Part shown: piece after piece, positions 29,371-54,218 of the stretch
How the letters are laid out: every line of letters begins with the position of its first letter
How positions within the stretch are numbered: the stretch's first letter is position 1
Assembly: GCF_900313035.1 (NCBI RefSeq)
Contig: NZ_OMPS01000035.1
Span: 1-64,000 of the forward strand
Direction of reading: 5' to 3'
Length of the DNA: 64,000 nucleotides
Source of the DNA: Ruegeria sp. EL01
GTDB taxonomy: Bacteria > Pseudomonadota > Alphaproteobacteria > Rhodobacterales > Rhodobacteraceae
Made by a program: the position numbers and the translations under genes
The notes under the pieces: model-generated
The model's input: only the letters and a program-made list of their open reading frames with translations
Told to the model about the DNA's origin: nothing
Databases searched by the model: none

Positions 29371-29604
29371 CTACTTTCGGCCCACTTTTAATCTTCGCTT
29401 CATAAGCGTCAGCAAAAGGACTCTTGCGGCGCTCACTGCACCTGCTTCCGTTCCAGCCATCTCAATTCCCAGCAACCGGTCTATGCCGGAGCTGGCACCG
29501 ATTGCCCCTAGTGACCTGCCATGTCCAAGAGCAGGCAGTTGGTCTCTACTTTCAAACTTGAGCGGTCGAAGAAATCTTGAACGAATCCTGATAGACATAT
29601 TCAT
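29371..29604 (-). CDS. Small ORF translationally coupled to the LuxR gene, unknown function
   Basis: This 77-residue frame starts with an ATG that overlaps the LuxR stop codon in an ATGA, the usual sign of coupled translation. No other gene covers this stretch on either strand. The product is basic and rich in Arg, Gly, Leu and Ser, with a hydrophobic-to-basic end (VSAARVLLLTLMKRRLKVG). I do not recognise the family. It may be a real small protein, or a remnant of a longer LuxR tail. Confidence 0.4.
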   Translation of the reverse strand: MNMSIRIRSRFLRPLKFESRDQLPALGHGRSLGAIGASSGIDRLLGIEMAGTEAGAVSAARVLLLTLMKRRLKVGRK

Positions 29605-30554
29605 AGGTTTCGAACCCGAATTTTTCGATCGGCATCTTCACCAAATGCGGCAGTTATGGCCTCAATAGAAATTTGAAACCGCCCTGACAAGCTCGCCGCT
29701 TCGACAGATACAAAGCTCGTAAGATCCCGAACCTGTCGACCCCGATCAAAGGAGATGATCTCATAGTTATTGCGGGTCCAGTACACTATCCCACCAAGGA
29801 GAACACGTTGACGCGGGTCGACGACTTCTAACACCGGATTTGCGAACAAGTCGGTCCACTGCAGTGTTCCAACACTCACGGCGCGTCCGACAGCCTGCTC
29901 AATCGTATTGCTCCTGAACTTGGTCATAATAGAGTCCATAAGAATGTCGACCAGGCCGGAGGAAAAGCCAACCTGGCAAGCGATGCACTGCGGAGACAAA
30001 CCAGCCGCCAACATTCTAAGGACATCTCGTTCATCCCCAGACAAAGACTCCGCCGGGAAATCGAGGGTAATGTCGATTACATCCAGCGCCAAGAGGTGCA
30101 GAAGCTGGGCCTCGTGTTGCAATTCGGGGAGGAGCTTCTGAACCTTTGATTGCCAGCGCGTGGCGGGTAGGTTGGAGGTGACAGTGAAAAGGCCACGACT
30201 ACCGAACGGGCCGATTGTGGGAATTGATATCCCCTGGCATCCGACGCCGAAGCGTTTTGCAGCCTCAAACATTGGAGCATACTCGGGTTGTGCGGAATAT
30301 GCTGACCACTCCAACGGCGCAATGGTGGTCGCCCCAAAGCGAATGAGTGGATCAGCCAATATCAGATTGTTGTCCGTGTAGTAATTCACCCAATCTGTAG
30401 GGAAGGTTGTGCACCCATGAACGATTTGGAGAGACGTGTCGATGTGTGCATAAGACGCATTTGTCAGCCCATATCTGTCGCAGATTTCTTGCAACCTGGC
30501 TTCGCCGGTCTGCTGCAAATCTAGGGTGCTCTGCCCAATATCTGTAAGTTGCAT
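29601..30554 (-). CDS. LuxR-family AHL-type regulator with C-terminal extension (solo LuxR)
   Basis: The protein has 317 residues from ATG 30554 (GAGGAC upstream); ordinary LuxR proteins have about 240. The N-terminal autoinducer domain keeps the TraR-type pocket at identical spacing: Trp55, Tyr59, Asp68, Pro69, Trp83 and Gly108. The HTH (171-231) keeps the scaffold residues Glu175, Leu179, Gly185, but the recognition helix reads FSSGLVDILMDSIMTKF and lacks the usual TVxxH pattern. Residues 232-317 are an extra domain (VLEVVDPRQRVLLGGIVYWT onward) I do not recognise. No luxI is in the window. It is divergent from the membrane protein/hydrolase pair at 30.7-33.4 kb and probably senses an acyl-homoserine lactone or a related signal. 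Confidence 0.82.
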   Translation of the reverse strand: MQLTDIGQSTLDLQQTGEARLQEICDRYGLTNASYAHIDTSLQIVHGCTTFPTDWVNYYTDNNLILADPLIRFGATTIAPLEWSAYSAQPEYAPMFEAAKRFGVGCQGISIPTIGPFGSRGLFTVTSNLPATRWQSKVQKLLPELQHEAQLLHLLALDVIDITLDFPAESLSGDERDVLRMLAAGLSPQCIACQVGFSSGLVDILMDSIMTKFRSNTIEQAVGRAVSVGTLQWTDLFANPVLEVVDPRQRVLLGGIVYWTRNNYEIISFDRGRQVRDLTSFVSVEAASLSGRFQISIEAITAAFGEDADRKIRVRNL

Positions 30555-30727
30555 TGTGTTGTCCTCGAGCGTTTGTTTGTGTTTCGTGCCCTCAACTAGC
30601 GGTTGTCGCGAACACGATAAGTCTAGTTGCCGCGTTATCACTACTGTTGATTGCCACAGCTGCTTGACAACGCCACGAAACGGAACGAGATCATACGAGA
30701 AGATGTGAGAGTAATTTTGCTAAAACC

Positions 30728-32386
30728 TTGAAAAATAATAAAAGTAATATCGTCCTTCCGCCTGCAAATGGCAGCGATTTTAAGGAGCTGTTCAAGTACG
30801 CGACGGATATCGGCGTAGGTCTGCCGATGGGTGGCGATGGTTTGCCGATCGGAACCTGGACGCCGCAAACGCTTGCGGCTGCTCTATCTGAGATTGAGGC
30901 AAACAAGACCGGTGTTGACCTTCGTGCCGTACAGCACTGGTTCGAAAATAATGATAAAGGAATAAGTGCTCCGAGCATCAATTTGTTAGCCCGGGTGTTC
31001 GGCGGTGGCGACACCGAAGCCACAACAGCGTGGCGCTCTGAGCTGACCGCTGGGCAAAGGCGGCTGATGGCAAAAAGGAAGGCAAGCAAAAGTAAGACGA
31101 AGCGCCAATCAAAAGAAGCAGTTGTAGAAGATCCAACTCTAGCGAAACCAAGGCCTGCTGATGCCATTCCGGTCGGAGAATTTCCCGAGCAGTCTTTTGT
31201 ACAGACTGACACCAGCGGGATCAGTGGCGTACAGCATCATCCAAAGACCCTTGCCGAAAGATGCGAACAGATCTTGAGTGGTGCAGCGTCAATGAACCTT
31301 CTAATCGTGTATTGGTTGGTTTTTTGCGGGCTTGGACTGATGAACTATGTCTTTGACACTCTGAGTGTCACATACAGCCCGTTCGAAGGCCTGGACAAGC
31401 AAGTCGGGTTTATCTGGGCCCCAACCCTGACCGTCTTGCCGTTGGTGGCTCTCCCGGCTTTCATCTATTACGTGAGCGAATTGACAACCTATTGGAAGCG
31501 GGTCGGTCGTTCGAAGTGCATTTTGCAAGGCGTGACGTCAACTGATAGCCAGGGCAGCGCGGCCTGGTACGCTAAGGTAAACGATTTCAAGTTTTCATTT
31601 TGGGCAATTGCCCTTTTTTGCCTTCTCTTCGTGTTCGGCTTTCAGTGGGCAGGGATCTACTTGCCTGCTTACCTTTCCGGAGATGCAAACAGCGTTCAGA
31701 TCGATCGGTACCTTGTTGCCCTTGTTCGGCCAGAAGTCATCTCTATCGAGGAAGCAATGGTGCTATCGTTCGTGGGCTATTTTTATACCGCGTCATACAT
31801 CGCAGTTTTCATGTTTGGCCTCCTATTCTTTGTCATAATCGTCTTGGACTTCCAAGATATCTGTACGACGCTTGACGTCGAAGGAAACAAAATCGAGGGC
31901 CGCCAGATCCAAAAAGAGGGACAGAAAGTAGTTTGGGGCGGTTTCAGGGTTGTTGTCTTTGCTTTGTGGTTGGCCACCCTTGTAAAGCTTCAAATCACTT
32001 ACCTGTCTTCTGATAGCTCAGATTTCCTGTCTTGGGTGCGCATAGACATGATGGGTGCTTTTGATGCGACCTCATTGCGTAATGGCTTATTGGAGAATAG
32101 CTCAATTAGCCATTTCACAACTTTCATGATGATGGCCGTAACGGTCTCCGTTTTCATTTTTGGAGTTCTGAGAATCCGAAGCTCTTTTGAGCGTTTGGCC
32201 GTTTACAACCGGATTCAGCAATCGAAACGGGATTATCTTGCGTTGTCCGAGATGCTGGGTGTGATCGCGTTGTTGTCGATTAGTTTGGTGCTTGTTGGGA
32301 GGTTCACTGGGTTTTCTATTGTTGTGGGTATCAGTGCCATCGCTTCACTACACGTGCTGTCGGGACCGAAACTGAGAACCTATTAG
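30728..32386 (+). CDS. Multi-spanning membrane protein with N-terminal HTH-like domain (RcgA-like putative transporter)
   Basis: The protein has 552 residues from a TTG start without a clear ribosome site; the true start may differ slightly. Residues about 17-115 form a soluble helical domain resembling an HTH (TWTPQTLAAALSEIEANK, LRAVQHWFENNDKGIS, APSINLLARVFGGGD). A basic linker (MAKRKASKSKTKRQSK) follows, then seven or eight membrane helices near 189-210, 227-250, 290-312, 350-374, 402-424, 463-484 and 507-546. I recall the label RcgA family putative transporter for such proteins beside a putative quorum lactone hydrolase, but cannot verify it here. The hydrolase gene follows after seven bases. 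It could be a membrane regulator, signal transporter or sensor. Confidence 0.65.
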   Translation: MKNNKSNIVLPPANGSDFKELFKYATDIGVGLPMGGDGLPIGTWTPQTLAAALSEIEANKTGVDLRAVQHWFENNDKGISAPSINLLARVFGGGDTEATTAWRSELTAGQRRLMAKRKASKSKTKRQSKEAVVEDPTLAKPRPADAIPVGEFPEQSFVQTDTSGISGVQHHPKTLAERCEQILSGAASMNLLIVYWLVFCGLGLMNYVFDTLSVTYSPFEGLDKQVGFIWAPTLTVLPLVALPAFIYYVSELTTYWKRVGRSKCILQGVTSTDSQGSAAWYAKVNDFKFSFWAIALFCLLFVFGFQWAGIYLPAYLSGDANSVQIDRYLVALVRPEVISIEEAMVLSFVGYFYTASYIAVFMFGLLFFVIIVLDFQDICTTLDVEGNKIEGRQIQKEGQKVVWGGFRVVVFALWLATLVKLQITYLSSDSSDFLSWVRIDMMGAFDATSLRNGLLENSSISHFTTFMMMAVTVSVFIFGVLRIRSSFERLAVYNRIQQSKRDYLALSEMLGVIALLSISLVLVGRFTGFSIVVGISAIASLHVLSGPKLRTY

Positions 32387-32393
32387 GTGGAAA

Positions 32394-33353
32394 ATGATAG
32401 AAGCTGAATTCTACGACCAAATGGCGGAAGGGCCAGCGTCCAGCAACGCATACTGGATGCAGACCGAAGATAATGTGCGTGTCCGCGTAGGCGCGTATGG
32501 GTGCGAAGGCGAGAGTAAAGGTACGATTTTGCTCATGCTTGGAAGGTTTGGCTACGTAGAAAGATATGGGCGGGTCGCAAAAGCGTTCGCCAGGCATGGG
32601 TTTGCAACCGCAGTCATTGATTGGCGAAGCCAGGGGCTTTCGGATCGCATAGCCGATGACCCTTTGGCAGGGCACATTGACAGCTTCTCAGACTATCAGA
32701 AGGACGTTCAGGCTCTCATCGAGGCAGCAGACAGTTTGGATCTACCGAAGCCGTATTTCCTGATTGGCGTGTCGATGGGTGCTTGTATCGGTCTCAGGGC
32801 GATGTTCAACGGTCTGCTAGTTGTGTCTGCGGCATTTATCTCCCCGATGTGGGGAATAAGAATGACTACGGCTCAGCGTATCGCTGCTTGGCCCCTTTCG
32901 TGGGCATTCAAGCAATTTGGGATTGGGCAAAAATACGTCCCGGGTGAGAGCGGCGCGATATACGTGTTGGAGACCCCATTCGAGGAAAACAATCTAACCC
33001 ACAATAACGCCATGTATGACTATTGGGTTGATCAAGCCAAAAAAGCCCCACAGCTACAAATAGGTGGACCAACAATGGCGTGGCTCTACTCAGCTCTATC
33101 CGAATGCCGAAGCCTATCAAAGATGCCTTCCCCTGATACTCCGTGCATAACTTTTTGTGGTGAGTTGGACCAGCTGGTGGACAATTCATCAATCAAACGT
33201 CGAATGGCGGTTTGGCCAAACGGTGAGTTTTCGATGATCCGCAATGCCAAGCACGACGTGCTGACAGAAACCTCCGAGGTTGGGGGCGACGTGATAGGCC
33301 AGATCTCCGATTTCTTTACCAAACATGGCGCCACTGCGAAGCCAGCAGAATAG
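32394..33353 (+). CDS. Alpha/beta hydrolase, lysophospholipase-like (possible quorum-signal lactonase)
   Basis: The protein has 319 residues with the alpha/beta hydrolase triad: Ser127 in GVSMGAC, Asp259 in CGELDQLVD and His287 in NAKHDVL. The oxyanion region is LLMLGRFGYVERYG and the strand after it is AVIDWRSQGLSDR, as in PldB-type hydrolases. It follows the membrane protein by seven bases and AGGTGG precedes the ATG, so they form an operon. Being divergent from an AHL-binding LuxR suggests it could open or modify the signal, but esterase or lysophospholipase activity is equally possible from sequence. Confidence 0.78.
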   Translation: MIEAEFYDQMAEGPASSNAYWMQTEDNVRVRVGAYGCEGESKGTILLMLGRFGYVERYGRVAKAFARHGFATAVIDWRSQGLSDRIADDPLAGHIDSFSDYQKDVQALIEAADSLDLPKPYFLIGVSMGACIGLRAMFNGLLVVSAAFISPMWGIRMTTAQRIAAWPLSWAFKQFGIGQKYVPGESGAIYVLETPFEENNLTHNNAMYDYWVDQAKKAPQLQIGGPTMAWLYSALSECRSLSKMPSPDTPCITFCGELDQLVDNSSIKRRMAVWPNGEFSMIRNAKHDVLTETSEVGGDVIGQISDFFTKHGATAKPAE

Positions 33354-33660
33354 CGTTGGCACGCTGCCCCTTCTGGGCTTGGGGTTGCGAACATCCCAAG
33401 TCATCTCATCTGGTTTTTCCTAAACCAGCCATTCAGGCAAAGCGCAGCAGAATCAACGAGTGAGCCCATAGTACTGGTTTCTGCGTTAACTATCTATGGC
33501 AGCACTGTGCAGAAAAAGGGCATTGCGAAGTGTAGCAGGAAACATTGAGGAGTCGATATCGAAAGGCGCCCGTAACAGCGCCCGCGGCACCGCCTGAGGG
33601 GTCCGCAAAGTACCCAGTCCAATCAATTCTAGAGTGGATACTTTACAGCATTGCTGTTGC
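33354..33660. other. Intergenic gap, no gene recognised
   Basis: About 300 bp between convergent genes. Short frames exist but look like noise. No strong terminator hairpin is visible. Confidence 0.4.
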
Positions 33661-34698
33661 CTACCTACCCTGAGCGTGCATTTCGCGTTTGCGGTTGCGC
33701 GTGCGCTTTGTGGCGTCCTCGGACCCGTCGTGATAGGTGCCAAACCATTTGTCCCATGGCATTTCCGCATTGCCGTAGTTGCACTCGTAATACCTGTGGT
33801 GAAGCTGGTGAAAGAACGCGCCAATCAGCAGGGCCTGACGATCGCGTGTCCAGATCGCCTCGTATCCCGAATGGGATGAGGCCGCGCCCAGCATCAGCCA
33901 ATAACCCAGAAACAACATGTGCACCGGATGGCTGGGCAGAACCAGCACGATCAGGATTGCGCTGAGATAGCCAAAGGACTCGACGGGATGCATCGACATG
34001 CCCGACCACGGCCCGGTGTTGACGTTTCGGTGATGCACGGCGTGGACGTGTTTGTAGATGAACGGCTGATGCAGAAAGAGATGCACCGCGTAGAAATGAA
34101 AGCTTTGCCAGATTGCCAGGATCGGGAACAGCGCGATGAACCAGATGGGATGGGCCGGAAAGGTCAGCGTGCCGATATAATCATTGGCGTACATCCAGCG
34201 CAGGAAGGTTTCCAGCCCTGACAGGATCGGGGCGCCGAAGACCAGCGAATAATACATGTTGTCCCAGGTCTGATATCCGAATTTGTAAAGCGCATTCTTG
34301 CGCTTCATATAAGGGCGCGGATCGTATTTCAGCAGCTTGCCCTGACCGTCGATCCCATAAAACCACATATGCAGGCCGCCCGCGACGATCAGCAACAACA
34401 TCCAGTTGCGGAGAAAAACATGCGCGACCCAGCCAAAAGAGAAACTGGCCTGATCCGGGCCAACGGGCTGCAGCCAGAAGGCCACGACAAAGGCCAGCAT
34501 CAGAAAGATCGAGCGGTCCGAGAACTGCAGCCAGTTCTGCCAGACCCATTTGCCCATGACGCCGAATTTCGGAGGCCACAGCCAATAGGGCGCGTATTTC
34601 ACCGGCAGATCGGGATGCCAGTGCCATTCACGGCTCATCGGGGCGGGCTCCGCGGTGTCGTTAGTGGTGTCTTCGGGGTTGGTGTCAGCAGTCGTCAC
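33661..34698 (-). CDS. Sterol desaturase/fatty acid hydroxylase-family membrane di-iron enzyme
   Basis: The protein has 345 residues from GTG 34698, with AAGGAAA upstream. The eight-histidine di-iron signature is visible: HFYAVHLFLHQ, HVHAVHHRNVN and HQLHHRYYECNYG. Several hydrophobic helices surround them (LMLAFVVAFWLQPVG, WMLLLIVAGGLHMWFYG). The family oxidises or desaturates lipid-like substrates using O2. The first 40 residues are acidic, low-complexity and probably cytoplasmic. It lies downstream of the PanB-like and reductase genes on the same strand. Its substrate is unknown. Confidence 0.85.
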   Translation of the reverse strand: MTTADTNPEDTTNDTAEPAPMSREWHWHPDLPVKYAPYWLWPPKFGVMGKWVWQNWLQFSDRSIFLMLAFVVAFWLQPVGPDQASFSFGWVAHVFLRNWMLLLIVAGGLHMWFYGIDGQGKLLKYDPRPYMKRKNALYKFGYQTWDNMYYSLVFGAPILSGLETFLRWMYANDYIGTLTFPAHPIWFIALFPILAIWQSFHFYAVHLFLHQPFIYKHVHAVHHRNVNTGPWSGMSMHPVESFGYLSAILIVLVLPSHPVHMLFLGYWLMLGAASSHSGYEAIWTRDRQALLIGAFFHQLHHRYYECNYGNAEMPWDKWFGTYHDGSEDATKRTRNRKREMHAQGR

Positions 34699-34794
34699 TG
34701 TATTTCCTTTCCATACCTGAATATATACGAAATTCAGGAATGAGAAGGCGGCGGCTCATAGGGGTATTTGCGTGACGGTCTGGTGAACATGGGA

Positions 34795-35630
34795 TTACTC
34801 ATGAAACCGGCGGCGCTTGTCCAGAGCCTCGCGCAACTTGTCATGCTCACCCGGTTTCATCGCAATGCCGGTAGCGACATCGGGATAACTGCGGTCAAGC
34901 ACGGCGGCGCGATAGGCGATCAGGCCCTTCATCCGCTCGGCCTCAAGTGCCGCACGGGCGCTTGCCATATTGGCAAAGGCCCGGGCGTGGCGCGGCGGGT
35001 TTGGCGTGTCACCGCAGGCATCTTCCTGAAACAGGAAAATCACATCCGCAGCCCCACCCGACCCGATGGAATGGTGATCAGCCCGGTGCGCGGGCTGATT
35101 TCGGCAATAGCCTCATCTGCCACGCATTCCAGTTCAACCGCATAGGCGCCCGCGTCTTCCAGACGGCGCAGATTTTCGGCCAGTTGCATCGCTTCATCCG
35201 CGGTGCGGCCATAGGCACGCAGGCCCCCGATCTGTGTTGAAAGGCGCGGCACAAGGCCCAGATGCCCCTGCACCGCCAGTCCTTCATCGGCCAGCAGTTC
35301 CACGGCATTGAAACTGCGCAAGGTGTAAACCGCATCCGCCCCGGCTGCGGCGGCACGAATACCCGCGCGTAGAATATCCTGATGGGTCTCATAGTCGCTG
35401 GCCATCAGCGCGGCGGTGGTGAAGGTGTCGGGTGCGCCGGCACGCACCTCGGCCAAATCATGATCGACAATCGACAGATGGTCGATCCCGGCGGCCTGGG
35501 CAGCGGCGGCCTCGATCCGGTTCACGGCTGTGGTCTGGACAAACTTGCGCTTGCCCTTGCCTGCGATGATATCGGCAACATTCAGGTTGCGCGTCGCAGG
35601 AAATCCGCCATTAGTGTAAATCCGTTTCAT
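34795..35630 (-). pseudogene. PanB-like ketopantoate hydroxymethyltransferase-family gene, frameshifted
   Basis: The N-terminal 190 residues (start 35630) show the PEP-mutase/PanB barrel with VQGHLGLVPRLSTQIGG, YGRTADEAMQLAENLRRLED and AYAVELECVADEAIAEI. The frame then ends at 35040. The remaining C-terminal part continues in another frame (DVIFLFQEDACGDTPNPPRH and ARAF onward) to 34795. Loss of one base in the stretch encoding LITI-(x)-GSGGAADV near 35065 explains the break. The full protein would have about 275 residues. It lies between a hydroxylase and a hydroxyisobutyrate-dehydrogenase-like gene. The break may be real or a sequencing error; codon use on both sides looks normal, which suggests a recent event. 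Confidence 0.75.
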
Positions 35631-35644
35631 GGCCGCCGTCCCCT

Positions 35645-36610
35645 TTACTCTGCCGCTTTGAGCTCTGCACCCCGCGGGATGACCTCGTAGCCCGGCTCTT
35701 CAGGCTCGTCATCCAGCATTTCGGGCGGGAAGCCGGGCGCGCGAATGTCCAGCCCGGTGGCCTCTTCTAGACGCTGGATGATGTTGGGGGAATAGCACCG
35801 CTCTCCATAACGTTCGATGCCATCTTCGAATATCTGCACAAGCATGGGTGAGATTTCCAGCGGTACGTTGTGGCGGTCGGCAACCTGCTGAAAGAGACCG
35901 GCGTCCTTTTTCACCAGATCCATGGTAAAGGAAATGTCGCGGCTGCCGTTCAGGATGACCTGACTTTCGGTCTCATGCACGAACGACGTACCGGACGAGA
36001 TTTTCATCGCCTCATAGGTGGTGTTCAGGTCCATGCCAGCGGCCTTGGCGGTGACCAGTGCCTCGCAGCAGGACACAAGATTGGCGGTAGCCAGATAGTT
36101 GGTCACAACCTTCAGAACCGAGGCGCTGCCCAACTCACCCGTGTGCAGAATGCGGCGGCCCATGGTTTTCAAAAACGGCGCGATCTGTTCGAATGTGGCG
36201 CGATCACAACCCGCGAAGATCGAGATATTGCCAGTGGCAGCGCGGTGACATCCGCCCGAAACCGGGCAATCCACGGCTGCGCCGCCCTTTTCCATCACCA
36301 ATGCGCCAAGGCGTTTGACCTCTTCTTCGTCGGTGGTGGACATCTCCATCCAGATTTTGCCCTCTTTCACCGCGGGCAGCATTTCCTGCATGACCGCGTC
36401 TGAGGCGGCAGGCGATGGCAGGCAGGTGATGACCGCATCGCAATCGCGCATCAGCTGAGCGGGGTTTTCACCGCGCTTGGCCCCGCGCGAGACGAAATCA
36501 CCGACCAGTTCTGGGTTCAGATCATGCACGGTCAGGTCGATGCCATTGCGCAGCAAGCTACCGCTCAACTTGCCACCGACATTTCCAAGGCCAATAAATC
36601 CAACTTTCAT
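35645..36610 (-). CDS. 3-hydroxyisobutyrate dehydrogenase-family NAD(P)-dependent oxidoreductase
   Basis: The protein has 321 residues from the ATG at 36610 (MKVGFIGLGNVGGKLSGSLL, Rossmann motif GxGxxG). The substrate motif DCPVSGGCHRAATG and the catalytic-lysine segment GSASVLKVVTNYLATANL are present. The C-terminus has an acidic extension (PPEMLDDEPEEPGYEV) beyond the usual 290 residues. An upstream ATG at 36664 adds an unlikely leader. It is the first gene of an operon with the PanB-like and hydroxylase genes and is divergent from a LysR gene. The actual hydroxy acid substrate is unknown. Confidence 0.87.
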   Translation of the reverse strand: MKVGFIGLGNVGGKLSGSLLRNGIDLTVHDLNPELVGDFVSRGAKRGENPAQLMRDCDAVITCLPSPAASDAVMQEMLPAVKEGKIWMEMSTTDEEEVKRLGALVMEKGGAAVDCPVSGGCHRAATGNISIFAGCDRATFEQIAPFLKTMGRRILHTGELGSASVLKVVTNYLATANLVSCCEALVTAKAAGMDLNTTYEAMKISSGTSFVHETESQVILNGSRDISFTMDLVKKDAGLFQQVADRHNVPLEISPMLVQIFEDGIERYGERCYSPNIIQRLEEATGLDIRAPGFPPEMLDDEPEEPGYEVIPRGAELKAAE

Positions 36611-36741
36611 ATGCGTATTCCCTGCTTTGATACCGATCCGAGGATCAGAGATGTCGCGGTTCACTGAAACTACAGAGGTTGATTGTAAGGTGTAAAACGA
36701 ATTAAAAAGGCAGATATTAGCGAAAATTTTCGGTGCTAGAA

Positions 36742-37626
36742 ATGGCGCATTCTCCCAACCTTGTGTGGCTTCGGTCTTTTGAATGCGCCGCCCGTCATCT
36801 GAGCTTCACGGTTGCTGCTGGGGAACTGGGCATCACGCAATCGGCGCTTAGTTTGCATGTGCGTTCGCTGGAGGCCGAGCTTGGCTGCCCCCTGTTCTTT
36901 CGCGCCGCGCGCAGGCTAAGCCTGACCGAGGTTGGTCAGGCCTATGCCTATTCCGTTCGGCGAGCGTTGGGCGACATCGACATGTCAACGATCAACCTGT
37001 TTGGGTCAAATCAGGTGCACGAACTGGTCGTGCGGGTTCCGATCTCGACAGCGGCCCTTTTCCTGGCGCAAAGGTTGCCCGAGTTTTCGCGCAATCACTC
37101 GCATATCAGCATCAGGCTGGTGTCCAATATCTGGGCTGAATCTGCAGGGCGCGAAGATGTCGATGTGGAACTGCGCTTGGGTAACGGGGAATGGAACGAC
37201 GTGTCGGTAAGAAAAATATCGGCCGAACGCATTGTTCCAATCGCTCCCAAAGACTCTAACCTCCGGATATTGCGGCCTGAAGAATTGCACCAAGAACCTT
37301 TGATCCATATCCTTGGTTTTCAGCATATGTGGCACAGATATTTTTCCACCATCGGGGTCGAACCTGCCGAAACGGTGTCGCCGTTTATCGTTGATACGAC
37401 TATCGCTGCGGTGGATATCGTGGCCGCTGGCGGCGGCTACGCCGTTGTGGTCGAGAGATTTGCAAAAACGGCCCTTGAGGCGGGGCGAAATGTCAAGATC
37501 GTCGGCCAGGCCGTGCCGATAGAGCAGAGCCATTTCCTGATTGAGGGCCAGAGCTCGAAAACAAATAACGGCGCCAAACAGTGCTTTGAAGCTTGGCTGG
37601 AAGGTATTTTTAGTCAGGATAACTAG
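36742..37626 (+). CDS. LysR-family regulator (GcvA-like)
   Basis: The protein has 294 residues from ATG 36742. The HTH is WLRSFECAARHLSFTVAAGE then LGITQSALSLHVRSLEAELG, followed by CPLFFRAARRLSLTEVGQAY, a pattern close to GcvA. It is divergent from the oxidoreductase operon, with about 130 bp of AT-rich DNA between starts, so it likely controls that operon. The C-terminus ends normally; the IS1182 element begins about 150 bp downstream. Confidence 0.87.
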   Translation: MAHSPNLVWLRSFECAARHLSFTVAAGELGITQSALSLHVRSLEAELGCPLFFRAARRLSLTEVGQAYAYSVRRALGDIDMSTINLFGSNQVHELVVRVPISTAALFLAQRLPEFSRNHSHISIRLVSNIWAESAGREDVDVELRLGNGEWNDVSVRKISAERIVPIAPKDSNLRILRPEELHQEPLIHILGFQHMWHRYFSTIGVEPAETVSPFIVDTTIAAVDIVAAGGGYAVVVERFAKTALEAGRNVKIVGQAVPIEQSHFLIEGQSSKTNNGAKQCFEAWLEGIFSQDN

Positions 37627-37772
37627 GTTCTTCTCCGTTCGAACTCTTTGCCATTTCTAAAGGCTTCGCTCTGATTTTTCCACGGGTTTCGGGCATCGGT
37701 TTTTCGGAGAAACGTGCCCGAACGACGGAGAGCTGTCATTCGTATCGACGCAGCGACAGCTCGCTTTGTCCG

Positions 37773-39289
37773 GATACTGTTGAAAAAGTCGGTGTTTTGG
37801 CTGGTTTGTCGGCTGTCGAGATTTGGGATGACGCGCCTCCTATTCATGTGGGGGTTGGTGTAGGAACCAGTTTTGCGAGTTTCCTGAGATTTTGTGCCGT
37901 GGCTGCTAGCTGGAACTGTTCATATGCGCCTTTGGGTCCTCGAAGCCGCATCATCCGCACGCCGATGTATCGCTTTAGATGTGCGAAGAGCATCTCGACT
38001 TTCCGCCTCTGAATGAATGAGGTCATGTAAGCGTCGGTTTTTCGGATATCGCGCACGACGTCTCGGGCAGCTTCGTGCACAGAGCGCATGAGGCGTCTCC
38101 CGTTGTCTTTCGGACAGCATTGCGGTTTCAAAGGGCATATGTCGCAGTCATGTTTGGAGGCACGGTATCTGATGAAGCCGTCTTTGCCACCATTTGCTTT
38201 TCGTGGGGTTGAGAAGTTCCGGCGATAGGTCTGCAACACCTTGCCGCCCGGACAGGTGTAGCTGTCGGTCGCGGCGGCATAGACAAAATCTTCGCGTGAG
38301 AAGGTGCCATCGGTTCGTTTCGATTTGTCCCAGACCGGAATGTGTGGAGCGATGCCGCGCTCTTCCACCAACCAGCCGAGCATCTCTGCCGATCCATAGC
38401 CGGTGTCACCGACCAGCTTGTCCGGGGTCATGCCAAAGCGATCCGTGATCCGGTCGATCATGCGCCGTGCGGCAAAGGCTTCTGCGGTTCGGATCGGAAC
38501 CGACGGCTCAACATCAACAATCACCGCATTATCCAGATCCACCATATAGTTGGTGGAATATGCGAAGAAGGCGGCCCCACCGTCTGCACCTGTCCAGCGT
38601 GCCACAGGGTCGACTGGCGAGATGTATTTGGGGACGACTTTAGTGGATGCACCGAATGCGGCATCATCCAGCGTTTCGAGGTACTCATCCAGAACACGAG
38701 AGATCAGTTCAGATGGCAAGCCTTCCTTGCTATCAATACCGCGTGTCTGGTTTGCATTTGCGGGTATCAGGCTGGCGTCAACGCCAAGGCTGTGGCCGCC
38801 GACAAGGCCTTCATCCATGCAGCGTTGTAAAACTTTCTCGAACAAATGACGGAACAATCCGCTCTCCCGGAAACGGCCATGCCGGTTCTTTGAGAACGAT
38901 GAATGATCAGGCACCGGATCGGCCAGGTCCAGCTTGCAAAACCAGCGGTAAGCCAGATTGACCTGTATCTCTTCGCAAAGCCGCCGCTCGGAGCGGATAC
39001 CCATGCAATATCCCAACAGCAGCATGCGGATCATCAGTTCCGGATCAATCGACGGACGACCATGTGAGCTGTAATACGGCGCAAGCATTGGGCGCACTTC
39101 GGTCAGATCAAGGAAGCGATCAATCCCACGCATCGGGTGATCCTGCGGCACAAACTCTTCGATTGAGAACTCATCAAACAACGCACCTTGCGCCACCTGC
39201 CTCGGTCCCATCATCGCCGCGCCCTCCCACTCTCAAAACAAGTGAATCAGGACACCAACAACCAATCAACAGACTTTTTCAACAGTATC
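37773..39289 (-). mobile_element. IS1182-family insertion sequence
   Basis: The element is about 1.5 kb and bounded by perfect 18-bp inverted repeats, GATACTGTTGAAAAAGTC at 37773-37790 and its complement at 39272-39289. One full transposase gene lies inside on the minus strand. I see no clear target duplication beside the ends. It looks intact and possibly active. Confidence 0.87.
37844..39214 (-). CDS. IS1182-family transposase
   Basis: The protein has 456 residues, full length. The N-terminus is MMGPRQVAQGALFDEFSIEE and PQDHPMRGIDRFLDL, and the family motif PSIDPELMIRMLLLGYCMGI follows. The DDE domain has LGVDASLIPANANQ (first Asp), DKLVGDTGYGSAEMLGWL (second Asp) and QRRKVEMLFAHLKRYIGVRM (Glu). 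A cysteine cluster (CDICPLKPQCCPKD) before the last motif is typical of the family. No frameshift or stop is seen. Confidence 0.92.
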   Translation of the reverse strand: MMGPRQVAQGALFDEFSIEEFVPQDHPMRGIDRFLDLTEVRPMLAPYYSSHGRPSIDPELMIRMLLLGYCMGIRSERRLCEEIQVNLAYRWFCKLDLADPVPDHSSFSKNRHGRFRESGLFRHLFEKVLQRCMDEGLVGGHSLGVDASLIPANANQTRGIDSKEGLPSELISRVLDEYLETLDDAAFGASTKVVPKYISPVDPVARWTGADGGAAFFAYSTNYMVDLDNAVIVDVEPSVPIRTAEAFAARRMIDRITDRFGMTPDKLVGDTGYGSAEMLGWLVEERGIAPHIPVWDKSKRTDGTFSREDFVYAAATDSYTCPGGKVLQTYRRNFSTPRKANGGKDGFIRYRASKHDCDICPLKPQCCPKDNGRRLMRSVHEAARDVVRDIRKTDAYMTSFIQRRKVEMLFAHLKRYIGVRMMRLRGPKGAYEQFQLAATAQNLRKLAKLVPTPTPT

Positions 39290-39315
39290 AGCCCAACCTG
39301 TGAATTAGTATTTCG

Positions 39316-39336
39316 CGCTGCGCGCGCTCGCAGCAC
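39316..39336. repeat. 21-bp GC-rich repeat with internal hairpin (copy 1)
   Basis: A 21-base sequence built on CGCTGCGCGCGCTCGCAGC occurs here and, identically, at 56346-56366, 17 kb away. It can fold with GCTGCG pairing to CGCAGC around a six-base loop. Similar ATTTTG bases follow both copies. It sits between IS1182 and the integrase remnant. Confidence 0.6.
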
Positions 39337-39389
39337 ACATTTTGTCGCGTAGGCATCATCGTGAGCACCGCACTGCGGCATAAATAGCT

Positions 39390-39570
39390 ACCATTCGCGC
39401 CTATGGCGACGTTGAATAAGGTTAGGTCGCGAAGGTAGCCCCGCGAGTTCTAGCCGTGCCCGGATCGCCCAGACCTGTTTTGGCAAGAGTGGACGTTTTT
39501 GGCCGATGATACGCCCCTTGTTCCATGTTCGGCGTTTCGGGGTGACGGCGGGAAGTTGGACTCTTGGCAT
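39390..39570 (-). pseudogene. Tyrosine recombinase/integrase remnant (N-terminal fragment)
   Basis: From ATG 39570 the minus strand encodes PKRRTWNKGRIIGQKRP and PKQVWAIRARLELAG, which I recognise as the start of a widespread small phage-type integrase. The next block (YLRDLTLFNVAI) is in another frame, so one frameshift has occurred near 39430, and homology ends shortly after. The catalytic C-terminal domain is absent. The fragment is squeezed between IS1182 and IS110, whose insertion probably destroyed the gene. Confidence 0.55.
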
Positions 39571-39804
39571 GATTTGCCCTCCGATCCTCCCTCCGAACCC
39601 AATCACCAGCGCCATGCTGGCAGTGGGATTGTATCGTCCTTGGCAGGGTTGGTTTTCAAAGCCGACCGACTGCGGTGGTGCTGCATGCGCAGTCGGCGCT
39701 GTGAGATGGGATGGTTGCCGCCCTCCCCAGACGGCATCGCAATGTGCCAAAGATGTGGTCGTACACGGCCACGATTGAGAGAGGACGGCAATTTGATTGA
39801 TACA

Positions 39805-40821
39805 ATGATCGGTGTGGACTTGGCAAAGAATGTCTTTCAACTCCATGGGGCTTCGCTGACAGGGGAGGTCAAATTTCGGAAGAAGCTCTCGCGGCCTCAG
39901 TTTCGAAAATTCATGGAAGCACAACCCGCAAGTATTGTGGTGTTTGAAGCGTGCGGCAGCGCTCATTTCTGGACGCGGGAGATGCAGCAACTTGGACATC
40001 AGGCAAAGCTAATCGCCCCTCAATATGTGAAACCGTTTGTCAAACGGCAAAAGAATGACGCGGCTGATGCTGAGGCGATTGTCATTGCGGCGCAGCGCCC
40101 GGAGATGAGGTTCGTGGAACCCAAAAGCAACGCGCAAATCGCGCGAAGTGTTGTGTTCCGTTCGCGCGACCGCCTGGTGCACCAGCGCACGGAACAGATC
40201 AATGCGCTGCGATCGGTTCTATATGAACAGGGCCAGGTCTTCCCGACCGGCGTCCATCAGATGAAGAAGATTGCAGAGTTTCTGCAACAGGCCGACAACG
40301 GCTTGATTGCTTTGGTCCGGGAGGAGTGTGAGGAGCTGATCGCTTCAATTTCCGAACACACGACCCGGATTGATGCGAAGACGGTGAAGCTCAAAAAGCT
40401 ATCGCAGCAGTCAGAGATGTCCCGACGGCTCCAGACGATACCCGGCGTTGGCCCGCTCACGGCCATGGCAATTGAAGCCTTCGCGCCGACAATGGATATC
40501 TTTCGATGCGGGCGAGACTTCGCCGCCTGGGTTGGGCTTGTGCCCAAGCAGCATTCATCGGGAGGCAAAGCGCGGCTCGGTAAGATATCAAAGGAAGGCC
40601 AGGTCGACATTCGCCGCCTTCTTATCATCGGTGCGATGACGCGTATCGCTTGGGTGGGTCGAAAACCTATTCAGGACGGCTCCTCGTTGGATCGCATGTT
40701 GAAACGCAAACCCAAGATGCTTGTCGCAATCGCACTGGCAAACAAAATGGCGCGAACTATTTGGGCCGTGCTGACGAAGCAAGAAGATTATCGAGATCCG
40801 GTGAAGACCGCAGCTGCCTGA
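39805..40821 (+). CDS. IS110-family transposase
   Basis: The protein has 338 residues. The N-terminal DEDD domain begins IGVDLAKNVFQLHGASL (first Asp), with VVFEACGSAHFWTRE, then KNDAADAEAIVIAAQRP (Asp-Asp). The C-terminal Transposase_20 domain has QTIPGVGPLTAMAIEAFAP and the serine-containing LVPKQHSSGGKARLG. I chose ATG 39805; a TTG at 39793 is possible. IS110 elements lack typical terminal repeats and use a bridge RNA encoded beside the gene, so the element ends cannot be placed from sequence alone. Confidence 0.9.
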   Translation: MIGVDLAKNVFQLHGASLTGEVKFRKKLSRPQFRKFMEAQPASIVVFEACGSAHFWTREMQQLGHQAKLIAPQYVKPFVKRQKNDAADAEAIVIAAQRPEMRFVEPKSNAQIARSVVFRSRDRLVHQRTEQINALRSVLYEQGQVFPTGVHQMKKIAEFLQQADNGLIALVREECEELIASISEHTTRIDAKTVKLKKLSQQSEMSRRLQTIPGVGPLTAMAIEAFAPTMDIFRCGRDFAAWVGLVPKQHSSGGKARLGKISKEGQVDIRRLLIIGAMTRIAWVGRKPIQDGSSLDRMLKRKPKMLVAIALANKMARTIWAVLTKQEDYRDPVKTAAA

Positions 40822-41203
40822 GCATTAACAGGCGACGCAATCTGAAGCCGGAAACTGGGGGTGAGAAGACGATGACCTGAATGGGCAACATGATCGAATA
40901 GATCTAGGTTGGGAAAACCAGTTTTGGGCTCCGAGCCACGAGCTCGCCTGTGAGATTTGGACCCAATCCGCTGATCACCAGGCCGGCCCGCGGTTTCTGA
41001 ACACGCCGCACTAAGAGCCCTGACAGAAGACCGCACTCGATCACCCTCCCTAACGGTCAAAAACTTCTTGCATCCCGGGCGGCAACCACAGAAGCCCAAT
41101 GCGTGGTTTTTCTGCGCAATAAGGTAACGACTGCTTCGGGACGGCGTTCGAAATCTGAGTTCGAATGCAAATTTATTGAGAACTGGGTCGATTTATTTCA
41201 GTT
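40822..41203. other. Gap holding the 3' flank of IS110
   Basis: About 380 bp without a credible gene. The first part is probably the IS110 3' non-coding end. GAGCCACGAGCTCG near 40931 is a small inverted repeat. The left flank of the transposase (39571-39804) and this stretch are the places to look for the bridge RNA. I cannot define its limits. Confidence 0.4.
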
Positions 41204-42928
41204 TCAATCCTCGACAACAGGCAATTCCAGTACCAGCCTTTCACTGGCAGGTCGGGCGCAGCATAGTAAAACCTCACCTTCTTCGGGCGGGCTGGACGGC
41301 GGAGTGTCGTAGATCACGTCTCCTTCTGTCAGGCGGCAACGGCAGGTTTGGCAGAGCCCGATACGGCAGGCGTTCTCGGGTGACAGACCCGCCGCTTCGG
41401 CCAATTCCAGCAAGGTGGGGTTAAGGCCCGCGTCCCATGTGGTCGTCACGTAGTTAGGGACGAACGTGACCTCGGCTTCCTGCAGGACCGGTTCAACAGG
41501 TGCGCCTGTTTCGGTTCCATAGCTTTCGGTGTTGATCTGATGTGAATTGGCCTCCATCCCTTCGAGGGCGGCGCGCATGTCTGTCAGGAAAGCCTTAGGT
41601 CCGCAGATGAAATGGTCCATTTCATAGGGCGGCATGTCGATGCGCAGATCGCCGTCCATGATATGGCTGCCCTCGATCAGATCGACGATGTAATCAGCTG
41701 TCACCCTGCCGGACAAATCGAAACTGCCCTGCGCAATGTCGGCTTCGGTTGGTTGGCTGAACACATGCCGGATCTCGACATTTTCCAGGCCTTTGAACGC
41801 ATCAACCTCGGCGCGTAGCGCCTGATCCTGACCGTTGCGCGCGCAGTAGACGAAATAAACGGGTGGCATGTGATCTCCACGGCCGATATGCGCCTTCAGC
41901 ATTGACAAAAGCGGGGTTACACCGATTCCGGCGGCCAGCATCAAGACCGGTTTGAAACCGCCCCGATCCAGCACGAACCGCCCAAGCGGGGCGGATACCG
42001 CAAGAGCATCACCCTGTCTCAACGTCTCGTGCATGAAGGCTGTGCCAGGGCCATCACCCTTGCGAATGGTCAACCGGTAATGGGTCGGGTTTTCCTGAAA
42101 ATCAGAGAGGCTCCAGACCCGGCGCCCTGTCTCGCCCAGATCAACCGACAGAAACTGTCCGGCATGATAGCCCGGCAGCGGCGGACCATTGGGTGCGACA
42201 AGATAGACGCTTTTGGTATCCGGGGTCTCATCGACTATTCGGTCCACACGCAGGTCGCGAAACCCTTTCCAGCGGTTTTTCTGCACCCGGTCGGCATCTC
42301 TGGCCGCATCAATCAGCCCGTCCAGCGCAAAACCTGCAATTTGCGACAGGCCGGGCAGAGATTTGATGCGTTCCAACTCCGCAACCGATGCACCGCCCGC
42401 AAAGATGGCCCGCGCGATATCAAGGATCAGGGTGCGGTTCCCGGTTGCCGGGATATACCGGATGTCGTCGCCCGCCTGAATGATACCGGTATTCTCAACG
42501 TTCAGGTAAACGCCACTTTGACCCGACAGGGCAAAGTCGCCGATAAAACTGTCAGGCTGGCCCAGCCGCCAGCACAGTTTGAAACAGGGCAGCCGGGGCC
42601 CGGCCACAGACAGCACCACCTGATCCCCGATTTCAATCCGGTCCCCGACCGCGAGATTGGCCTCATCCAAACCTTCAATGATTAGGTTTTCGGCAAATCT
42701 GCCGCGTGGCCAGTCGTCACCACACAGTTGTGACCTCCAACGATCATAGGTCGCGTCCGAAACGGCATAGATCGCGTCCAGATGAACCGCCACATCGTCC
42801 CCCTCCAACCCGTTTTCCAATACGCGGACCGGTCCGTGTACTTCTTTCTTCACATATGCCGTGGTGACATCATGTCCGCGGATGCTCTGAATTTGGCTGG
42901 GGCCAATGCAAATCGCCTGCAATTTCAT
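41204..42928 (-). CDS. Three-domain fusion: MOSC - ferredoxin reductase - [2Fe-2S] ferredoxin
   Basis: The protein has 574 residues from ATG 42928. Residues 1-200 are a MOSC domain (VLENGLEGDDVAVHLDAIYA, WPRGRFAENLIIEGLDEA, GPRLPCFKL with the conserved Cys). Residues about 240-470 are an FNR-type FAD/NAD domain (GYHAGQFLSVDLGE, RVWSLSD, LMLAAGIGVTPLLSML, CGPKAFL). The last 90 residues are a plant-type ferredoxin with ACRIGLCQTCRC and a distal LLCCARP. MOSC proteins handle sulfur-containing or molybdenum-linked groups; the rest supplies electrons from NAD(P)H. It closes the Lrp-HyuA-DUF917 operon, 11 bases after DUF917. The open frame reaches up to 43174 but that part is inside DUF917. Confidence 0.87.
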   Translation of the reverse strand: MKLQAICIGPSQIQSIRGHDVTTAYVKKEVHGPVRVLENGLEGDDVAVHLDAIYAVSDATYDRWRSQLCGDDWPRGRFAENLIIEGLDEANLAVGDRIEIGDQVVLSVAGPRLPCFKLCWRLGQPDSFIGDFALSGQSGVYLNVENTGIIQAGDDIRYIPATGNRTLILDIARAIFAGGASVAELERIKSLPGLSQIAGFALDGLIDAARDADRVQKNRWKGFRDLRVDRIVDETPDTKSVYLVAPNGPPLPGYHAGQFLSVDLGETGRRVWSLSDFQENPTHYRLTIRKGDGPGTAFMHETLRQGDALAVSAPLGRFVLDRGGFKPVLMLAAGIGVTPLLSMLKAHIGRGDHMPPVYFVYCARNGQDQALRAEVDAFKGLENVEIRHVFSQPTEADIAQGSFDLSGRVTADYIVDLIEGSHIMDGDLRIDMPPYEMDHFICGPKAFLTDMRAALEGMEANSHQINTESYGTETGAPVEPVLQEAEVTFVPNYVTTTWDAGLNPTLLELAEAAGLSPENACRIGLCQTCRCRLTEGDVIYDTPPSSPPEEGEVLLCCARPASERLVLELPVVED

Positions 42929-42939
42929 CAATTTGTCTT

Positions 42940-44049
42940 TCACTTTGTATCGCCGTGGAACTCTGGTGGCACATATTTTCCGAATGGATTGTATTTTGTA
43001 TCCCCATAGCCGAAAGCTTGGGGACCAACGACTTTCAGCGCCTTTTCGCTGCGCAATGCATCGCTGCACGCGATCGCCAGCGTCGTGACACGCAGACCGA
43101 ACCGCAACTCTTCGCAGGCGACAGGTGCGGCGGTTTCGCTGTCCAACAGACAGATCAGATCGGGTACAACACAAAGAACCGTATGGCCGTCGCGCGCAAT
43201 CAGATACTCGTTCTGAATGTCGATACTGACGGTGCGTGCGCCGCCCACCTCTGTGATCTCCATTTTCCCACGCGAGAACCCATCGACGGTTTCCCGATCC
43301 AATGCGGTGATCTTGCCGGTGATCAGTGCGGTCGCGCTTTCGGATCGCAACAATGCGGCGACGGGATCGGTATTGTTGGCGCGGGCACTCAACACTTCGT
43401 GTCCGATGCGCCAGGCATGGCTGATCGTGTGATGAATGGCTGTCCGTCCGATATCAAGACCATTGAACGGGCCGAAGCCGAACATGGACATACCACCCAT
43501 GCTGATGGCGTTTGATCTGCAAAATGTCTCGAGCCAATCAACCGAGGCGCCCTTGGGATAAAGAACAACGTTGCCCTTGTCATCCGCCTGCGCGGCCGGG
43601 AACAGGTCCAGCCCGTTGATGTACAATGTCGTCATTGGAACTTCGGGAAAGGCGCGGCCCATGCCGTCGCAATCCACCACGGGCAGGCCCATATCGGCGG
43701 CAACAACCATATGTTCCAACCCATTGGCCCCGCCAACTTCGTCGCTCATCAATGCTGTCACCGTTCGTCCGGTAAAGCGTTCCAGTGCCGTGATGACCTC
43801 ACCGGCTTCGGAGCCGGCGAAAGGTTTTTCGTGCCAGACAGTCGGCGCGCCAAGCGCACTGAGAGGCAATACCCAATCATCAGAGGTTAGATCCCGAGGC
43901 GAGATCACCCGGATTTCTTTACCCGCCCGCAAGGCGGCTTTGGCCCGCAATTGCACCAGATGAACTGCACCCCCGCCGCCAGTGCCCAGAATGCCCGCCC
44001 CCAAGGCGATGCAATCAATATCGCATTCCGTCAAAGACCAGACCGTCAT
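42940..44049 (-). CDS. DUF917-family protein (S-methyl thiohydantoin desulfurase type)
   Basis: The protein has 369 residues. Family blocks are IALGAGILGTGGGGAVH at the N-terminus, LMSDEVGGANGLEHMVVAAD, PVVDCDGMGRAFPEVPMTT and a C-terminal RVTTLAIACSDALRSEKALK with VVGPQAFGYG. Members of DUF917 pair with hydantoinase/oxoprolinase A subunits, and the current family name refers to desulfuration of an S-methyl thiohydantoin. Its start overlaps the HyuA stop (ATGA), so the two are co-translated and may form a complex. Confidence 0.85.
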   Translation of the reverse strand: MTVWSLTECDIDCIALGAGILGTGGGGAVHLVQLRAKAALRAGKEIRVISPRDLTSDDWVLPLSALGAPTVWHEKPFAGSEAGEVITALERFTGRTVTALMSDEVGGANGLEHMVVAADMGLPVVDCDGMGRAFPEVPMTTLYINGLDLFPAAQADDKGNVVLYPKGASVDWLETFCRSNAISMGGMSMFGFGPFNGLDIGRTAIHHTISHAWRIGHEVLSARANNTDPVAALLRSESATALITGKITALDRETVDGFSRGKMEITEVGGARTVSIDIQNEYLIARDGHTVLCVVPDLICLLDSETAAPVACEELRFGLRVTTLAIACSDALRSEKALKVVGPQAFGYGDTKYNPFGKYVPPEFHGDTK

Positions 44050-45584: not shown

Positions 45585-46084
45585 GTACATTTTCCTTGCT
45601 TAATCCGTTTTCGTAAATCGTCAGCAGCGCGGCTCTTGAAGCCATAGAGCTTCAGTACGGCCATGTAGAATTCTTTCTTGATGTCGCGAATGCCGGGAAT
45701 CGCCGAAATTTCTTCTATTTTCTGCATTGCCTCTGCGCGCGACATTGGCGGGAAAGCGACGGCTACATCATGATCGGTTCCCATATATCCGATCCATTCA
45801 ACATTTGGATTGTCGATCAAGGTATCAGCAACCTCTGCTATTCGCCCCGGTTCAGTGGTGATGCGCAGCTCGACTGAAACTGTGTCACCCAGCGCAACGG
45901 GATCAGGGATCGCAGCCATAAATACCAATTTTTGTTCGATCAGGGCATTCAGGCGATTGCGAATCGTTCTCTCAGAAACGTCGCCAATGTTGTTCGCAAT
46001 TTCCGAAGCTGACCGCCTGCCATCACTGGCAAGCATCTCAACAATCTGGCGGTCCAGTGTGTCGAATGTCTCTGGTTTTCCCAT
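45581..46084 (-). CDS. Lrp/AsnC-family regulator
   Basis: The protein has 167 residues. The HTH is FDTLDRQIVEMLASDGRRSA then SEIANNIGDVSERTIRNRLN, followed by the RAM ligand domain (SVELRITTEPGRIAEVADTL, IGYMGTDHDVAVAF). It is the first gene of the hydantoinase operon and is divergent from the transporter operon at 46238, so it likely controls both. Lrp proteins bind amino acids or related small ligands. The intergenic region contains AATATT twice (46129, 46155), 26 bases apart. Confidence 0.87.
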   Translation of the reverse strand: MGKPETFDTLDRQIVEMLASDGRRSASEIANNIGDVSERTIRNRLNALIEQKLVFMAAIPDPVALGDTVSVELRITTEPGRIAEVADTLIDNPNVEWIGYMGTDHDVAVAFPPMSRAEAMQKIEEISAIPGIRDIKKEFYMAVLKLYGFKSRAADDLRKRIKQGKCT

Positions 46085-46128
46085 TATTTACACCACATGC
46101 GTTCCGAAACAGAAATATCTCCGAGTCA

Positions 46129-46160
46129 ATATTACCAAAAAAGAAAATAATAGCAATATT
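46129..46160. promoter_or_regulatory. AT-rich inverted repeat, possible Lrp site
   Basis: AATATT at 46129-46134 and 46155-46160 flank an A-rich stretch between the divergent Lrp and receptor genes. Lrp-type proteins favour such AT-rich, spaced sites. The motif is short and could be chance. Confidence 0.35.
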
Positions 46161-46237
46161 TTTTCCATTATGGTACTCTCGCAAAAAGCCTGCAAGATGC
46201 AATAACCATCATGTGATGGATCGCAAGGGAGGAAGCG

Positions 46238-47320: not shown

Positions 47321-47333
47321 GAAGGCAATACTG

Positions 47334-50022: not shown

Positions 50023-50067
50023 ATTGGATGTCGTATTTTCTTGGAATAAGTTACTGACATACAGTTA

Positions 50068-53066: not shown

Positions 53067-53081
53067 GCAAGCCACCATAAA

Positions 53082-53136: not shown

Positions 53137-53153
53137 GGTATAAAAGGTCAATC

Positions 53154-54141: not shown

Positions 54142-54218
54142 TGCCGGTGGGCTTACTAAGCCCCGTTTTTCCAAATTCTGCGCGTGGATCGAATGGTGGC
54201 TATCGCATCGCGGCCTTT

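Follow-up and report, generated by a model that had tools for sequence, protein, structure and literature searches.

A LuxR-type regulator with a C-terminal extension beside rcgA and a hydrolase gene in Ruegeria sp. EL01: a candidate control module of a conjugative replicon

The DNA analysed here, referred to as the window, consists of bases 1–64,000 of contig NZ_OMPS01000035.1 (C32, 71,897 bases long) from the 5.3-Mb genome (G000) of Ruegeria sp. EL01. We are concerned with three of its genes. The first, on the reverse strand (29601..30554), encodes a LuxR-type regulator of 317 residues with a C-terminal extension, called LuxR-ext here; its ATG at 30554 stands behind GAGGA, and the listed 346-residue open reading frame (ORF) starts upstream of it. 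Across a divergent promoter region of 173 bp (30555..30727), in which no clear dyad is seen, is a gene for a membrane protein on the forward strand (30728..32386, with an uncertain TTG start). The third gene, also on the forward strand (32394..33353), begins 7 bases after the second and encodes an alpha/beta hydrolase of the PF12146 type.

By its profile match, the membrane protein at 30728–32386 is a member of the RcgA family. It matches the NCBIfam model NF047336 (conj_memb_RcgA) over its full length (residues 1–549) with 352.1 bits and an E value of 4.6e-105, which passes the curated cut-off of 325. Its identity to the S. meliloti member is 35%; of the ten further members aligned, six fall at 32–37%. 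It lies in the clade that has PF12146 hydrolases. A Kyte-Doolittle scan gives eight windows above threshold, two of which overlap, so that there are 7–8 hydrophobic segments; for RcgA of R. favelukesii, six helices were reported using TMHMM (Castellani 2022, PMC9601222). The helix count of the original prediction thus stands; for the HTH-like cytoplasmic domain that it also described, Pfam gives no support, with no HTH match in any of the 11 aligned RcgA members. The conserved soluble part is N-terminal in the alignment of the window protein with ten other members, while the HTH-like part of R. favelukesii RcgA has been placed at the C terminus (Castellani 2022/2026, PMC9601222, PMC13055273). 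A second pair of RcgA and PF12146 hydrolase is found in the same genome, on contig C42 (L046, 8008–9642, reverse strand). No LuxR or type IV secretion system (T4SS) match is present in the 18-kb stretch around it; the other end of C42 bears VirB genes.

The hydrolase stands where rcgR is found in rhizobia, directly after rcgA, and like RcgR it has an alpha/beta triad. It matches PF12146 at 3e-29, and its nearest NCBIfam model is lysophospholipase L2, with 127.5 bits, well under the cut-off of 362. It has no match at E <= 1 to the RcgR model NF047337 (cut-off 182 bits), to which two rhizobial RcgR proteins score 641 and 632 bits. BLASTP against S. meliloti RcgR gives an E value of 1.4, and hhalign gives 0.6%, with both profiles shallow (Neff ~2). 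The identification of the hydrolase as RcgR is therefore rejected, since none of these three methods finds homology beyond the superfamily. The full triad that had been predicted (S127-D259-H287) is well supported: S127 and H287 are kept in 15/15 and D259 in 14/15 aligned relatives, while the RcgR triad (S195, D280, H311) is kept in 13/13. The alignments covered 15 of the 16 PF12146 hydrolases (G028 was left out, as its start is unclear) and all 13 RcgR proteins. Conservation of the triad in both hydrolase types suggests that catalysis matters. Compared with the homologue in the nearest relative, Ruegeria sp. Alg231-54 (G039), the hydrolase gene has a dN/dS of 0.07, indicating purifying selection.

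A wider comparison was made to see which genes accompany rcgA. Among 385 genomes sampled across the class, only the window's own genome was positive for RcgA (E <= 1e-30), and the census was therefore made from plasmid records, 224 of which have an RcgA match, and from genomes of the genus. It consists of 30 loci and is not random: 11 of the 20 best plasmid records, 10 of a spread of 60 records, 8 other matches in the genus, and the window. A hydrolase gene lies directly downstream of rcgA in 29 of the 30 loci, 16 being of the PF12146 type and 13 of the RcgR type, as tallied by eye. In Roseovarius sp. THAF27 (L123, 5623–6498) there is no hydrolase, and a gene for a DMT-family transporter is found instead. 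The PF12146 loci and the hydrolase-less locus form one group in a FastTree tree of the 30 RcgA sequences (support 0.96), so a single replacement of the hydrolase suffices. Rhizobiales have partners of the RcgR type, as do some Rhodobacterales (Sulfitobacter faviae, Paracoccus and one Pseudosulfitobacter). Zeta-toxin family genes are annotated near rcgA-hydrolase pairs of both types (L037, 9086–10849; L124, 6577–7317).

A LuxR gene is present near rcgA in 5 of the 30 loci, based on a BLASTP search within 2.5 kb at E <= 1e-5 with three LuxR proteins as queries. Two of these five encode LuxR-ext, namely the window and Alg231-54. The other three (Aminobacter pUSP3, A. tumefaciens pAt14-818c_b and R. 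johnstonii pRL8) have the same order, with luxR divergent from rcgA, and their LuxR belongs to another lineage. The question of whether the neighbours are conserved together, on which the original prediction was to be judged, thus has a divided answer: rcgA and the hydrolase gene are nearly always together, but LuxR-ext joins them in no more than 2 of the 30 loci.

This arrangement resembles the traR/rcgA-rcgR circuit of rhizobial plasmids. On pLPU83a of R. favelukesii, conjugation requires rcgA, whose product is located in the membrane (Castellani 2022, PMC9601222), while rcgR lowers the expression of traR (Castellani 2022, PMC9601222; Castellani 2026, PMC13055273). On plasmids of group X (I-C), traR is reported to lie always upstream of rcgA and in the opposite direction (Castellani 2022/2026, PMC9601222, PMC13055273). 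The window shares with this group a divergent LuxR without luxI, a hydrolase gene after rcgA, and conjugation genes on the replicon. It differs in that the LuxR has an extra domain and is of another lineage, the hydrolase is of the PF12146 type rather than RcgR, and the transfer genes are of the VirB and not the Trb type; in addition, no traM is seen beside the module. Rhodobacterales account for 19% of the RcgA homologue hits in Castellani 2022 (PMC9601222), the main text of which, as far as consulted, names neither Ruegeria nor Roseobacter, and no description of a roseobacter module of this kind was found in the open-licence PMC literature, as far as its texts were available. Judged from its genes, the module is of a known kind, in a roseobacter variant with a different LuxR and a different hydrolase.

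LuxR-ext passes the Pfam cut-offs for both of its domains, scoring 74.5 bits for Autoind_bind (cut-off 23) and 25.5 bits for GerE (cut-off 23.5). The five pocket residues for acyl-homoserine lactone (AHL), W55, Y59, D68, P69 and W83 (30306..30392, reverse strand), are invariant in 14/14 aligned sequences, and so are the HTH residues E175 and G185. Alignment A1 comprised the window and 13 of 18 homologous loci; alignments A2 and A4 comprised the window and 13 of 14 loci (L078 left out). The intact TraR-type pocket and the preserved HTH scaffold described in the original prediction are thus both borne out. LuxR-ext shares with TraR of Agrobacterium and rhizobia these pocket residues, the GerE domain and the place beside rcgA, and differs in the replacement of R206 and R210 and in an extension of 86 residues. 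In two of the three TraR proteins encoded beside rcgA that we aligned, the positions of Tyr59 and Asp68 are changed, whereas the pocket of LuxR-ext is intact. Membership of the TraR lineage is rejected, on three grounds: LuxR-ext scores 29.9 bits against the TraR equivalog NF010444, far below the curated cut-off of 250; it has 22.6% identity over 133 residues to the TraR beside rcgA on Aminobacter pUSP3; and in a FastTree tree of 16 sequences it is placed first with L063, a distant relative, and next with two LuxR proteins linked to luxI (support 0.831), apart from the three TraR proteins.

No luxI (PF00765) match is present on C32, as had been noted for the surroundings of the gene. There are four elsewhere in the genome, on C5, C8, C28 and C30, three of them beside other luxR genes. 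A LuxR solo has been defined by the lack of a cognate luxI in the same genome (PMC4338825). LuxR-ext is like the solos in having AHL-binding and GerE domains and no luxI on its contig, and it differs from them in its extra C-terminal domain and in that the host has luxI elsewhere. We infer from the pocket that LuxR-ext binds a ligand of the AHL type, coming from one of the four LuxI proteins of the host or from other cells.

The GerE-type HTH occupies approximately residues 169–230 (29865..30050, reverse strand). A Pfam GerE match is present in 14/14 aligned members, and the modelled HTH part superimposes on GerE domains at 0.8–1.6 Å over 61–66 columns. Within it, the recognition helix (residues 199–212; 29919..29960, reverse strand) has G200, D203 and D207 aligned with N203, R206 and R210 of TraR. 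Arg206 and Arg210 are two of the primary contacts of TraR with the tra box (PMC7856919). The departure of this helix from the family had been remarked on in the original prediction and is real, but ordinary LuxR proteins of the same host depart at these positions as well: residues 203/207 are E/R in L002, E/A in L003 and R/E in L004. Position 203 is also Glu in a luxI-linked LuxR of Ponticoccus. The altered helix is thus a weaker sign than it first appears, because L002, L003 and the Ponticoccus protein have Glu203 and two of the three host LuxR proteins lack Arg207. Relatives of LuxR-ext carry D, N, E or H at position 203, except for the two most distant ones, which have R or K, and at position 207 they carry D, A, S or N; in the three TraR proteins beside rcgA the pair is R/A in two and N/N in one.

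These residues bear on the suggestion that LuxR-ext is not a DNA-binding protein but a signal-dependent anti-activator, forming pairs with a different LuxR of the host in the way that the truncated TrlR pairs with TraR (PMC7856919). The aspartates at the positions of the DNA-contacting arginines would fit such a role, and the three host LuxR proteins with an adjacent LuxI could serve as partners. However, GerE scores in all 14 members, the luxI-linked proteins L002, L003 and that of Ponticoccus also carry Glu203, and TraR-At of A. tumefaciens, with Lys206 and Glu210, is nonetheless a potent activator (PMC7856919). An altered specificity appears at least as likely as a loss of DNA binding, and we regard the anti-activator as improbable; action without classical DNA binding, as first proposed, is not established.

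The C-terminal extension (residues 231–317; 29604..29864, reverse strand) is predicted by AlphaFold2 to be a small alpha/beta domain. When residues 227–317 were modelled alone, with 14 sequences, pLDDT was 86.6 and pTM 0.77, and the model shows strands followed by two short helices, with one more strand at the end. The model of full-length LuxR-ext was poor (mean pLDDT 57.1), and its N-terminal half was not used. The extra residues beyond the HTH, about 86 in number as originally stated, are not a peculiarity of the window. Each of the 19 strong matches in the genus, among them that of the window, extends to residue 305 or further, although the search threshold of E <= 1e-40 favours long matches. 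An origin of the tail by frameshift, the result that would have told against it, is therefore rejected. No known fold was found for the tail: the best Foldseek E value was 0.8, the best Z score with VIA-align 2 was 2.2, and the best match to PDB sequences had an E value of 0.46. These failed searches do not demonstrate that the fold is new.

Of 390 genomes of the order searched with a profile of the tail, 10 were positive; all ten belong to the genus Ruegeria, and the 138 other genera sampled gave no match. Nine of the matches retain the complete tail within a LuxR-length frame, while the tenth is a copy broken by two TAG codons. Excluding Alg231-54, identity in the tail is 37–43% compared to 54–57% for LuxR-ext as a whole, and the tail evolves faster.

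Genes of a T4SS are located on the same contig beyond the end of the window. Pfam matches at 65.6–71.6 kb of C32 are to DUF1173, an SLT transglycosylase (VirB1 type), TrbC/VirB2, CagE_TrbE_VirB (VirB4) and a T4SS protein (VirB5 type), and lie 36–41 kb from LuxR-ext. The end of contig C42 has matches for VirB8, CagX (VirB9), TrbI (VirB10) and a coupling protein, together with a partial VirB6-like gene that is 81% identical to VirB6 of Alg231-54, and all of these are collinear with Alg231-54. VirB4 and VirB10 each have two matches in the genome, and because the other copy of each is on C8, it is likely that C32 and C42 are joined in one replicon. A relaxase-family match is present on C42, and there is no MobA_MobL match anywhere in the genome. 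The replicon is probably able to transfer, to judge from these genes. A further relaxase-family match (PF03432, 57.6 bits) is seen in the window at 622–939 (reverse strand), in a frame of 210 residues, and is perhaps a remnant.

In Alg231-54, the module is followed by two small genes and then by SNase, DUF1173, virB1 and virB4 within 1–5 kb (the genes listed here and around the LuxR-ext loci are ORFs of >150 residues, and smaller ones only where they have a match). Mutation of rcgR on pLPU83a raises, among other genes, one of the thermonuclease family (Castellani 2026, PMC13055273), which with the SNase gene after the Alg231-54 module provides a small independent link. In the window, about 29.7 kb of cargo (33414..63142) separates the module from the transfer genes, where Alg231-54 has about 30 bp at the equivalent spot. 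The cargo includes transporter, dehydrogenase and transposase genes, and no terminal repeats were seen around it. It is followed by a gene for a conserved protein, tentatively labelled TrbM, without a Pfam match (63176..63922, reverse strand), which adjoins the virB genes in relatives.

In the roseobacter D. shibae, T4SS genes are under AHL control (PMC4886583). On C8 of the present genome, a luxI-luxR pair is found within 7 kb of the second VirB4 gene (492–1849 and 8097–8693; L003, L105, L108), and for this reason the host may have a second, quorum-linked T4SS.

The original prediction was of a locus that senses an AHL-like signal and adjusts its transport or breakdown. As a description of a stand-alone locus, this has in its favour a LuxR with an intact pocket next to a membrane protein and a hydrolase. 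The NCBI names of the RcgA and RcgR families, putative transporter and putative quorum lactone hydrolase, point the same way, and import of the signal by RcgA and hydrolysis by RcgR have both been discussed (Castellani 2022, PMC9601222). But RcgA is needed for conjugation where it has been tested, which agrees with the T4SS context, and the membrane protein has no Pfam match at all, to a transporter or otherwise. Sensing and breakdown of a signal may be right; a stand-alone locus for transport and breakdown is very improbable, given that the membrane protein is RcgA and that VirB genes are on the replicon. A defence system was also considered and rejected, as PADLOC gave no match except a weak CARF hit of LuxR at E 0.006. 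No relative of LuxR-ext or RcgA was found in IMG/VR, as regards viral carriers.

The module and its close surroundings (29450..33413) form a block with 92.7% DNA identity to Alg231-54, with flanks that are unlike. The borders of the block are close to the ends of the module. Within it, dN/dS against Alg231-54, by the same count as for the hydrolase, is 0.48 for the LuxR gene and 0.23 for rcgA. An ORF of 77 residues (29371..29604, reverse strand), which overlaps the LuxR stop codon by ATGA, had been described as coupled to LuxR. The overlap is present, but the ORF is weakly conserved: against Alg231-54 it has 69% amino acid identity at its start, its frame ends elsewhere, and dN/dS is 1.17, from 52 codons with few sites. 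It is probably not a gene. In the comparison with Alg231-54, the dS of the hydrolase gene (0.35) is five times that of the LuxR gene (0.07), which suggests recombination within the block.

LuxR-ext was found at E <= 1e-40 in 17 of 54 genomes of the genus, with 19 matches, and in one genus besides, out of 294 sampled across the family; the latter genome (G320) is named Ruegeria spongiae. RcgA is present in 6 of the 54, and both proteins together in 2, the window's genome and Alg231-54. The exact trio of LuxR-ext, rcgA and PF12146 hydrolase is young, because the first two occur together only in these two genomes. The 19 matches and G320 make 20 LuxR-ext loci (G032 was equated with NZ_CP065360, L038, by coordinates). 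VirB genes are present in the stretch fetched for 13 of them, coupling-protein fragments in one, and in the window they are at the distance given above. In the clusters with a RepC-type gene, the AT-rich palindrome CCAATATNNNATATTGG lies between two divergent genes (L061, 5816–5832, and 14 other loci, some of the 15 being the same DNA fetched twice). It does not count as evidence of an operator, as the surrounding DNA is equally conserved.

These counts are the basis for a different explanation, that LuxR-ext regulates a RepC-type replication gene or the VirB system elsewhere in Ruegeria, and that a single event in the common ancestor of the window and Alg231-54 brought it next to rcgA without the two forming a circuit. 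A RepC-like gene or fragment (PF03428 for one) adjoins LuxR-ext in 15 of the 20 loci, LuxR-ext and RcgA coincide in few genomes, and the difference in dS between the LuxR and hydrolase genes is a sign of recombination. It is harder to explain in this way why a divergent LuxR of another lineage recurs beside rcgA, and why the block shared with Alg231-54 ends so close to the ends of the module. We consider chance neighbourhood rather unlikely.

Our preferred interpretation, which we hold to be fairly probable, is that this is a roseobacter version of the traR/rcgA/rcgR switch, with LuxR-ext in the place of TraR, and that it serves as the control module of a conjugative replicon. LuxR-ext would be the putative master regulator. 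It would bind an acyl-type ligand, for which the host has its four LuxI synthases, and would switch on the transfer genes through the GerE helix, perhaps aided by the C-terminal domain. RcgA would be the membrane protein required by the mating apparatus. Like RcgR in rhizobia, the hydrolase would lower transfer, in its own case by removing or converting the ligand.

Several observations count against this interpretation. LuxR-ext adjoins rcgA only in two near kin, and its usual neighbour is RepC-like. Four LuxR-ext loci (L051, L054, L062 and L064, which is partial) lie at the end of a contig or close to it and are uninformative on transfer genes, and the distant locus L063 shows none. No tra-box-like dyad was found in an operator search of the 173-bp promoter region, and Asp at both arginine positions speaks against contacts like those of TraR. 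The TraR of pLPU83a, which is without a traI partner, is reported to give no AHL response (PMC13055273). The function of RcgR is not transferable by homology, because the hydrolase is not RcgR. Finally, the joining of C32 and C42, though likely, is itself a deduction from gene content.

Hydrolysis of the TraR ligand is one of the models put forward for RcgR (Castellani 2022, PMC9601222), while those of 2026 involve contact with a promoter or with TraR (Castellani 2026, PMC13055273). How RcgR represses, what RcgA does, and when plasmids with traR and no traI transfer are left open in the text available from these two papers (PMC9601222, PMC13055273). The presence in Ruegeria of RcgA with a different hydrolase speaks mildly for hydrolysis of the ligand over contact with the promoter or TraR. 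The same layout and RcgA family with a different hydrolase and LuxR is in effect a natural swap experiment, which predicts hydrolysis as the common function. A bolder proposal, which we put forward only tentatively and which may well prove wrong, is that the switch was assembled twice around one RcgA, from TraR and RcgR in rhizobia and from an extended LuxR and a lipase-like PF12146 hydrolase in Ruegeria. If so, selection would keep the chemistry, namely an acyl signal that is sensed by LuxR and destroyed by a hydrolase, and not the supposed contact of RcgR with DNA or TraR; the tail of LuxR-ext would be a novel domain and would share in, or take over, the recognition of DNA or of a partner from the altered GerE helix. 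LuxR-ext offers a LuxR with an intact pocket beside rcgA, unlike two of the three TraR proteins aligned, and RcgA modules are likely regulators of transfer in the plasmids of marine roseobacters.

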